Shown here: positions 3,500 to 31,941 of the stretch, piece by piece
Layout of the letters: each line of letters starts with the position of its first letter
How positions within the stretch are numbered: position 1 is the stretch's first letter
NCBI GenBank assembly: GCA_018713305.1
Contig: DVFI01000012.1
Coordinates: 1 to 38,688, forward strand
Origin: Candidatus Avichristensenella intestinipullorum
Lineage (GTDB): Bacteria; Bacillota; Clostridia; Christensenellales; Aristaeellaceae
Reading direction: 5' to 3'
DNA length: 38,688 nt
Notes under the pieces: generated by a model
The model's input: the letters and a program-made list of their open reading frames with translations, nothing else
What the model was told of the DNA's origin: nothing
The model's database searches: none
Position numbers and translations under genes: made by a program

Positions 3500-3524
3500 A
3501 AACGCGGAATAACCGCATACCGCT

Positions 3525-3672
3525 GAACGGTGCGCGCCAAGGCGCGAGAATAGGGAATCGGGTGCAAAGCCCGAGCGGTCCTGCCGCCGTAAGGAGGAGC
3601 GTGCTTCATAGGCCACTGGGAAACCGGGAAGGCGAAGCACGCCGTGAATCCGAGCCGGAAGACCTGCCGTTT
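3525..3672 (+). promoter_or_regulatory. Cobalamin riboswitch
   Basis: The leader carries the conserved cobalamin aptamer elements in order: an AATAGGGAATCGGGTGCAAA core (3550-3569), a CCTGCCGCCGTAA segment (3580-3592), the B12 box GCCACTGGGAAACCGGGAAGG (in 3612-3632), and the 3' block GTGAATCCGAGCCGGAAGAC leading into CTGCC (3644-3668). The closing stem is visible as AACGG (3526-3530) with CCGTT (3667-3671). Known members bind adenosyl- or methylcobalamin and shut down downstream genes. The terminator at 3732-3763 indicates transcriptional control of the binding protein that follows. Confidence 0.93.
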
Positions 3673-3731
3673 GGGGGGCGTTGGCTTCACAGGATATGGA
3701 GCGCCGCCGTGCCGGAGGTTTTCACGTCCGC

Positions 3732-28461: not shown

Positions 28462-29067
28462 TTATTGGATGGTGCGTATGGCGTTGAAGGGATAGATGAC
28501 CAGTCGGACATGGCCCTTGATGTCTTCGCGCGGGATTTGGCCGACGGTGCTGACATGGCTGTCCTTGGAGGAAGCGCGGTTGTCGCCCAGGACGAAATAA
28601 TGCCCTTCTTCCACGACGGTTTCGGCCATTTCATAGTTGGCCGGGTAGTCGATATAGCTTTCCTCCACCGCCTCGCCGTTTACATAGAGAACGCCGTTGC
28701 GCATGGCGACGGTATCGCCTGGGATGCCGACGACGCGCTTGACGCGGTAGGTATGGTCGCCGCCGGGGTAATAGCAGACGACGACGTCGAAGCGTTCGGG
28801 GTCATCAAAGAGGTAATCGTATTTGGTGACCACCATAAACTCGTTGTGGTGCAGGGTGTTTATCATGGAAGAGCCGTCGACGCGCACGGGCTCAAAGACG
28901 AAAGTGCGGATGACCAGCGCCAGCGCGATGGCCACGGCGATGGTCAGCACCCATTCCAAGATTTCACGTCCCAACGTTTTTTTCTTTTTTTCCTTTTTTT
29001 TCGCAGCGTCCGTGGTCTGCGGCTGCGCCGAGTGCGTTTGCATGTCGTTTGGGCCCAAGTCGGTCAT
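28462..29067 (-). CDS. lepB: Signal peptidase I
   Basis: The 201-residue membrane protease removes signal peptides from exported proteins. A lysine-rich cytosolic tail (residues 23-30) precedes one membrane helix (about 36-58). The catalytic Ser67 lies in DGSSMINTL and the general base Lys110 in YRVKRVVGIPGD; the GDNRASSKDSH box closes the domain. Length suits single-span Gram-positive SipS-type enzymes. The lysine tail is coded by A8, A7 and A7 runs (28977-29001), unusual in this GC-rich genome. The start at 29067 overlaps the DUF951 stop (ATGA); the AAAGGAG site is rather far upstream, so coupling is likely. Confidence 0.96.
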   Translation of the reverse strand: MTDLGPNDMQTHSAQPQTTDAAKKKEKKKKTLGREILEWVLTIAVAIALALVIRTFVFEPVRVDGSSMINTLHHNEFMVVTKYDYLFDDPERFDVVVCYYPGGDHTYRVKRVVGIPGDTVAMRNGVLYVNGEAVEESYIDYPANYEMAETVVEEGHYFVLGDNRASSKDSHVSTVGQIPREDIKGHVRLVIYPFNAIRTIQ

Positions 29068-29288
29068 GACGGTTCAGATGCTCCTTTCAAAAGGCCTGGC
29101 GATTCCGGACGCTCGACAAGCCGTTTGCGCCGCTTGAGGAACGCCTCGCGATCCAGCATTACAATGCGTCCGCAGCCCGTGCAGCGGATTTTAATGTCCG
29201 CGCCGGTACGGATGATGACCCAAAGGTCGCTGCCGCAGGGATGGGGCTTGCGCATTTGCACCACGTCGCCCAGCAGGATTTCTTCCAT
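29064..29288 (-). CDS. DUF951 family protein
   Basis: The 74-residue protein has the DUF951 pattern: LGDVVQMRKPHPCGSDLWVI, then RTGADIKIRCTGCGRIVMLDR. A CTGC pair (CxxC) is visible and could bind metal or nucleic acid; the family function is unknown. In many Firmicutes a DUF951 gene lies near chromosome-partitioning or ribosomal genes. Here it precedes lepB, whose start overlaps its stop. GGAGGTG stands before ATG 29288, and a TTGCAT promoter lies 25 bases further up. Confidence 0.92.
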   Translation of the reverse strand: MEEILLGDVVQMRKPHPCGSDLWVIIRTGADIKIRCTGCGRIVMLDREAFLKRRKRLVERPESPGLLKGASEPS

Positions 29289-29361: not shown

Positions 29362-30366
29362 TCAGGCGCCTGTATGGGAAGAGAAGGTAATCAGCGCGGC
29401 TTCCGGCGTGTTGAACAGGCGGAAGGCCGGCAGCGGGCTGGCGGCGTTGACGCCCAGGCCGCCGGTGATGTACTGGGGCATGTTGGCGATATACGAAAGG
29501 CCCGTCACCTCTTCCTCCGGCAGCCAGTGTCCGTTGGCCCATACCGGGCCCAGACCGGGAAGTCTCCACTGACCGCCCGCCGTGCCGCCGGACAGCACCA
29601 AATCGACGGAGCGTATCTGGGCCTGCGCTTCTTCGCCGGCGGTGTCCAGCAGCGCCTGCAGGCTTTCCCGCCGCAGCGGCGGATGGGAAAGCGCCAGATG
29701 CAGGTCCTCCTCCCGCATCTGCTCCCGCGCCGCCTGGGTGCGCGCAATCACGTCCAGCCAGTAGGAAGCCACGCCCGTGCCGGCCGCCGCATAGGCGGCC
29801 GCCGCGCTGTCCAAATCCAGGTCGATTTGCGCCGCGTCCGAAAACCATACGGTCGCCTCCCCCACCTGGAGCGAGGCGGGCGCGTCCAGGTATACGGCGC
29901 CCCGCGTCTGCGCGCCGGCAATCCAGTCCGCAAGCACCGTATGGTAGCCCTCCGGCTGGCCGCCCACGGCGACGGGGTCGGAATCGCCGGCAATAAAATA
30001 GACCGGCTGGGTGCTGAGCGAGTGCAGCAATTCGTAGAAGGGGTAGGGGTCTGCGCCGGACCCGACCATATCGCCGGACACGCAGACGACGTCGTAGCGC
30101 TGGTTTTGCAGCAGGTTGATGAGATGCTCCTGCTCCGGGCCGAAGCGCTTGCCGTTCAGGTCGGACAGCAGCAGCACCGTAAAGCCCTCCAGCTCTTCCG
30201 GAAGATTCGACACCAGCACGCGCTGCGTGCGAATCACGACGCGTCCGTTATCATAAAACGTATACAGGGCGCATAACGCAACCGCCGCCAGAACCAGCGA
30301 GATCAGCCAACGCCCCCAATGCCTCCGCTTGCGTGTAAAGAGTACCGGTTCCCTGTCCATACGCAT
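29362..30366 (-). CDS. Metallophosphoesterase-fold protein with degenerate active site
   Basis: The 334-residue protein has an N-terminal membrane anchor (about 17-38) and a YkuE-like calcineurin-fold domain. The expected metal-site blocks are present in order but altered: SDLN (Asp69, Asn71 where His is usual), SGDMV (Asp99 kept), AGDSD (Asp128 and Ser129 where GNH is usual), SHPP (His228 kept), and SGGTAGGQ (259-266) where GHTHGGQ is usual, so both histidines are lost. The fold may be kept without normal catalysis, or may bind metal differently. The start at 30366 follows GGGAGGG with seven-base spacing. I see no convincing promoter. It is divergent from radA. Confidence 0.86.
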   Translation of the reverse strand: MRMDREPVLFTRKRRHWGRWLISLVLAAVALCALYTFYDNGRVVIRTQRVLVSNLPEELEGFTVLLLSDLNGKRFGPEQEHLINLLQNQRYDVVCVSGDMVGSGADPYPFYELLHSLSTQPVYFIAGDSDPVAVGGQPEGYHTVLADWIAGAQTRGAVYLDAPASLQVGEATVWFSDAAQIDLDLDSAAAAYAAAGTGVASYWLDVIARTQAAREQMREEDLHLALSHPPLRRESLQALLDTAGEEAQAQIRSVDLVLSGGTAGGQWRLPGLGPVWANGHWLPEEEVTGLSYIANMPQYITGGLGVNAASPLPAFRLFNTPEAALITFSSHTGA

Positions 30367-30516
30367 GCCGCCGCCCTCCCCGTGCATTCATATAACGAAA
30401 ACGACGGCCGTTTCATCGCATCGGCTCTGTATTTTCTTTGCGCAATTTGGTAAAATGGCAAAGAGGCTGTGGAACGATTCCCTGCGCGGCCGAGCCGATT
30501 CGACAGGGGTTTCGGT

Positions 30517-30544: not shown

Positions 30545-30567
30545 GAAAGACGGTACGGGGGTTGCGT

Positions 30568-31941
<1,374 letters not shown>

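Follow-up and report, generated by a model that had tools for sequence, protein, structure and literature searches.

The window, that is, the whole stretch of 38,688 nucleotides that was analysed, carries on its minus strand (29362..30366) a gene for a putative pseudo-metallophosphoesterase of 334 amino acids, an open frame that matches the Pfam metallophosphoesterase (MPE) model PF00149 and has full-length orthologues in 231 of the 250 genomes of its bacterial family covered by a profile search. The stop codon of the frame lies at 29362, and an alternative in-frame ATG at 30387 would extend the product to 341 residues; the ATG at 30366 is the better choice of start because a Shine-Dalgarno-like sequence, GGGGAGGG, occurs just upstream of it. 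Residue numbers are given below for the 341-residue form; subtracting 7 gives the numbering of the 334-residue form used in an earlier note on this DNA.

The gene is flanked by radA (sms; 30562..31941, plus strand; NCBIfam TIGR00416, 616 bits), which is transcribed divergently and represents its most conserved linkage, the two genes being divergent neighbours in about 21 of 41 genus representatives. Directly downstream on the minus strand are a DUF951 gene (29064..29288; Pfam PF06107, 90.7 bits) and, overlapping it by 4 bases, the signal peptidase I gene lepB (28462..29067; NCBIfam TIGR02227, 160 bits); this downstream arrangement occurs in the window and in no other sampled genus. In seven of the 41 representatives (L097, L099, L102, L108, L112, L120, and L121) a polyphosphate kinase gene (ppk1), its identity confirmed by Pfam for one of the seven, lies directly downstream on the same strand, a linkage that is a possible functional hint. 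Direct searches of the neighbourhood found no consistent partner gene among the 41 genus representatives. Elsewhere in the window, a cobalamin riboswitch is located at 3511-3685 on the plus strand (Rfam RF00174, 105.3 bits).

By descent and fold the protein belongs to the calcineurin-like MPE superfamily. It matches PF00149 with 26.1 bits (cut-off 21.5), as do 29 of 30 orthologues at E≤0.01, and the AlphaFold2 model, computed from an input alignment of 94 sequences, is confident (pLDDT 92.2, pTM 0.89) and consists of a membrane helix followed by an MPE domain. The predicted domain is a two-layer beta-sandwich of the MPE type (Foldseek probability 1.00), and PptH, LpxH, Mre11, and purple acid phosphatase are among the MPEs that match it best in the PDB (E about 1e-6 to 1e-4); they share its overall fold but only 10–17% identity and differ in their substrates. 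The two-metal sites of these enzymes are intact. No PDB chain was matched by the single sequence or by the profile. The best NCBIfam match is YaeI (NF008460), with 33.9 bits over residues 33-334, compared with an equivalog cut-off of 188.

The general architecture is that of the membrane- or wall-associated MPEs of the YkuE/YaeI type, with an N-terminal membrane or export segment, the MPE domain and a C-terminal GLG...R..N.P block, whose R323, N326, and P328 are common to the window protein and its canonical paralogues and relatives. The N-terminal helix (residues 24-48; 30244..30318, minus strand) is hydrophobic and is modeled with a pLDDT of about 95, in keeping with the membrane anchoring proposed in the earlier note. 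A basic stretch, RKRR, precedes the helix and suggests a topology with the N-terminus inside and the domain outside. YkuE of Bacillus subtilis, a Mn/Zn-dependent phosphatase, leaves the cytoplasm by the Tat pathway (PMC10550928, PMC6708511); unlike it, the window protein has an N-terminus that looks like a simple membrane anchor. In one large branch of the family (L010, L012, L015, L017, L020, L025, L026, L032, and others) long Lys-rich extensions precede the membrane helix, in frames of 440–530 amino acids.

The five blocks that build the metal site in active dinuclear MPEs (DxH, GDxx, GNH[D/E], H, and GHxH) can all be aligned in the window protein, and the translation reproduces exactly the substitutions first noticed in them (DLN, GDS, and GGTAGGQ). 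Block I reads SDLNG in place of SDLHG (residues 75-79; 30151..30165, minus strand, as for all blocks), with Asp76 kept and the metal-ligand His replaced by Asn, and block II reads GDMVG (residues 105-109; 30061..30075), with the bridging Asp106 in place. Block III is GDSDP, in contrast to GNH[D/E] (residues 134-138; 29974..29988), so that the catalytic His is lost and the Asn has become Asp. Block IV, LSH, retains His235 (29683..29685), and block V is GGTAGGQ, in contrast to GHTHGGQ (residues 267-273; 29569..29589), both metal-ligand His being gone. An alignment error at this last position is ruled out, since GG(T/Y)(A/C)GGQ aligns gap-free between invariant Gly residues. The protein therefore lacks GNH, both His of GHxH, and the His of DxH, and differs in this from YkuE-like canonical relatives (DLH, GNHE, GHxHGG); what it retains is Asp76, Asp106, Asp135, Asp137, and His235, three of which had been listed before as Asp69, Asp99, and His228. 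These remaining side chains could conceivably still bind a metal weakly.

Substitutions of this kind are widespread among the orthologues, as shown by motif counts over 73 distinct aligned sequences of the family clade (72 from the bacterial family of the window and a single one from a different family of the order), nearly all of which have open full-length frames. Asp76 is present in 73 of 73 and the His of DxH in 36; Asp106 is found in 71, the exceptions being L004, a second species of the same genus (53% identity to the window protein), and L150, from another genus (46%), which carry Asn. His is absent from the GNH His position in every sequence (0/73), and 66 of 73 have Asp at the GNH Asn position. 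The reading of GDS for GNH was thus correct and can be refined: the Asp that follows (Asp137) is invariant (73/73), so the block is better described as GD-x-D, a conserved replacement motif of the whole family and not random noise. His235 occurs in 71 sequences and the first GHxH His (the position of His268) in 68, while the second is found in none, most sequences having Cys (35), Asn (19), or Ala (10) there instead; the commonest forms of block V are GHYCGGQ and GHYNGGQ. No aligned sequence contains an intact GNH or GHxH motif (0/73). GGTA is common to the window protein, L004, and L150, and orthologues with the same substitution, which the earlier note had asked for, therefore exist. Blocks II to IV of the latter two (GNM, GAGD, and LSR in L004; GNM, GRSD, and LSA in L150) indicate that they lack almost every ligand and have lost more than the window protein itself.

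The family is further distinguished by a helical insertion between blocks III and IV (residues 186-226; 29710..29832, minus strand), evident from the spacing of the two blocks, with a median of 118 residues in the family vs. 82 in canonical and intermediate relatives, and from the AlphaFold2 helices at 192-202 and 205-223. This insertion, of about 36 residues, has no equivalent in YaeI/YkuE. Asp137, Trp181, and Asp228 are conserved residues specific to the family, and together with the insertion they would fit a new constraint acting on the protein.

In the rest of the phylum, YkuE-like proteins are mostly canonical, and nine PF00149 matches occur in the genome of the window, namely the protein under study and eight others. 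One of the latter (L165) has fully canonical motifs, which shows that canonical MPEs persist beside the window protein. The two closest paralogues in the genome (L002 and L003), 29–32% identical to it over the matched stretches, carry GHTHGGQ or GHAHGGQ; their GNH block is altered (GSHE and GNND) and their GHTH or GHAH is kept, so that they may be altered enzymes too. Trees built without the motif columns group the window protein with L004 and L150 (support 100/97 in a tree of 94 rows) and recover a canonical group (100/98) and an intermediate group (100/99), the latter made up of sequences from other families and placed as sister of the family of the window. These intermediates (L066-L087, from other families of the class) resemble the window family in having GE-x-D or GD-x-D for GNH, several of them with GHTL for GHTH; they differ from it in that several keep GHTH and in that the helical insertion is missing. 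Two sequences of Niallia taxi were added to a further tree: L174, in which all His are present (DLH, GDH, GHYH), is sister of the family clade (98/86), and L173 joins the intermediates, whose form of the GNH block it shares. L173 is a degenerate MPE (DLQ, GDKD, GHTL) encoded on the Bacillaceae megaplasmid pMEGANia (1.44 Mb; match at 1501-2367), and its position among the intermediates means that the degenerate lineage extends beyond the family of the window.

On the simplest reading of these trees, the GNH Asn would have changed first and the GNH His would have been lost afterward, in two independent events, one in the intermediates and one in the family clade, provided that L174 is correctly placed. 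The second GHxH His would have followed, being lost at least twice, again in these two clades separately, and then the His of DxH, which disappeared repeatedly (the tree has 15 changes); the first GHxH His was lost in the window clade and independently in two other rows. The absence of GNH and of the second GHxH His is ancestral to the whole family, and only the change to GGTA belongs to the window clade. The claim that the protein lost most of its metal-binding histidines holds, with the refinement that most of these losses are family-wide and old.

The reading best supported by this evidence, and held here with fairly good confidence, is that the gene encodes a pseudo-MPE with a membrane helix and a complete fold, whose two-metal centre was taken apart step by step without loss of the fold, and which would no longer hydrolyse phosphoesters and would work by binding. 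Judged by its motifs, the window protein itself should have lost the hydrolysis of phosphoesters. Another reading, improbable though still to be reckoned with, is that of a re-engineered mononuclear enzyme in which Asp106, Asp135, His235, and His268 together with GD-x-D would support hydrolysis or other phosphoryl chemistry, the window clade being a divergent version of it. Four of the second-site ligand positions are kept in 90–97% of the family, with a change of Asn to Asp, also a metal ligand, at one of them; Asp137 is invariant, and the columns around the metal site are among the most conserved, all of which such an enzyme would account for. However, no member retains the second GHxH His or the GNH His, both of which canonical two-metal catalysis requires, and within the window clade His268 has become Gly in three of three sequences and, in two of three, Asp106 is Asn and His235 is Arg or Ala. 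Since the gene is retained there in spite of the loss of the one-metal site, metal chemistry cannot be its sole job in that clade. The choice offered in the earlier note between a pseudoenzyme and a changed metal site is therefore supported by the data, the former being the better description of the window clade and the latter, as a one-metal site, being possible for most of the family.

A pseudoenzyme is expected to be maintained, and the distribution of the gene agrees with this. Besides its presence in the 231 genomes mentioned above, an orthologue is found in 111 of 116 high-quality genomes and in 48 of 50 genera of the family, across which full-length orthologues occur at 34–53% identity to the window protein; among 391 genomes of the class full-strength matches were obtained only in the two genomes of the family contained in that sample, and one orthologue (L031, genome G057) belongs to a different family within the order. 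Nei-Gojobori estimates of dN/dS are 0.28 for the window protein and L004 and 0.36 for the window protein and L150, rough values given that synonymous sites are near-saturated (dS 1.4–1.5) and that the within-genus figure is one pair only, from the two genomes of the genus; other pairs give 0.10–0.25. At columns where at least 95% of the remaining family agree, the window clade departs from the consensus in 7 of 12 ligand cells vs. 1 of 54 cells of the framework (p = 7.5e-6 by a Fisher test that treats related cells as independent, the three clade members sharing ancestry); in its sister group of five, none of the 20 ligand cells is altered. The metal site is thus where change has been directed, with the framework held. 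The catalytic residues of active homologues are thus absent from a gene retained under selection (231/250; dN/dS 0.10–0.36).

Recent decay or a pseudogene is ruled out by this retention, by the dN/dS values, and by the motifs of relatives, none of the 73 aligned sequences being a close relative with GNH or GHxH intact. That the gene is not in random decay, as originally argued from its intact reading frame, stands as a conclusion; an intact frame alone is weak evidence, and the case rests instead on retention in nearly all genomes of the family, on dN/dS values well below 1, and on change specific to the ligands. A relaxed gene heading for loss, that is, a dispensable enzyme whose frame has stayed open by chance, would be in keeping with the faster evolution of the window clade (RadA is 80% identical to its counterpart in the L004 genome vs. 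53% for this protein), with its somewhat higher dN/dS (0.28–0.36), and with the progressive loss of ligands, but near-universal full-length frames, retention in 111 of 116 genomes, 53 of 54 framework cells unchanged, and a confidently predicted fold make it very improbable. Least credible of all is a migrated active site, in which catalytic residues from neighbouring loops would provide ordinary phosphoesterase activity with new ligands: residues newly conserved in the family do exist (Asp137, Trp181, and Asp228), but near the site the window clade shows no conserved His of its own, and the residues conserved specifically in that clade (Trp27, Cys39, Asp46, Arg53, Arg56, Trp283, and Glu329) lie mostly in or beside the membrane helix.

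The protein is therefore regarded here as an ancient and retained pseudo-MPE that probably serves as an extracytoplasmic binding or scaffold domain. In the mechanism proposed, an MPE domain displayed outside the membrane would bind without cleaving. In most family members a single metal ion could be held by Asp106, Asp135, His235, and His268 together with Asp137, and this half-site may bind a phosphorylated envelope molecule without cleavage or else help to maintain the fold. The window clade has lost the half-site wholly or in part, and metal binding there would be absent or only weak; for this reason the working surface is more likely to be one that contacts a protein, and the conserved helical insertion is a candidate for it. 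A more specific proposal, put forward tentatively and with somewhat less than even confidence, is that a YkuE-like enzyme gave rise, by ordered loss of its ligands, to a one-metal sensor and then, in the window clade, to a metal-free module, and that the product may be a non-catalytic surface receptor or scaffold essential to the lineage.

A precedent for such reuse of the fold is provided by the B subunits of eukaryotic DNA polymerases (e.g., Dpb2), in which an inactivated MPE fold is kept as a non-catalytic structural domain (PMC7308368). They act in nuclear replication, belong to an unrelated lineage, and lack a membrane anchor, and should be taken as an analogy and not as relatives. Literature searches found no description of a bacterial pseudo-metallophosphoesterase. 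To our knowledge, bacterial pseudoenzymes are little studied in general. The protein is carried by nearly all members of the family, whose genomes would by default be annotated with an additional metallophosphoesterase, a label that is probably wrong in its case. Living relatives appear to preserve every step of the transition, from L174 with all its His, through the intermediates and the one-metal half-sites, to the GGTA clade, and this graded series offers ready material for testing the conversion of an enzyme fold into a protein that binds.
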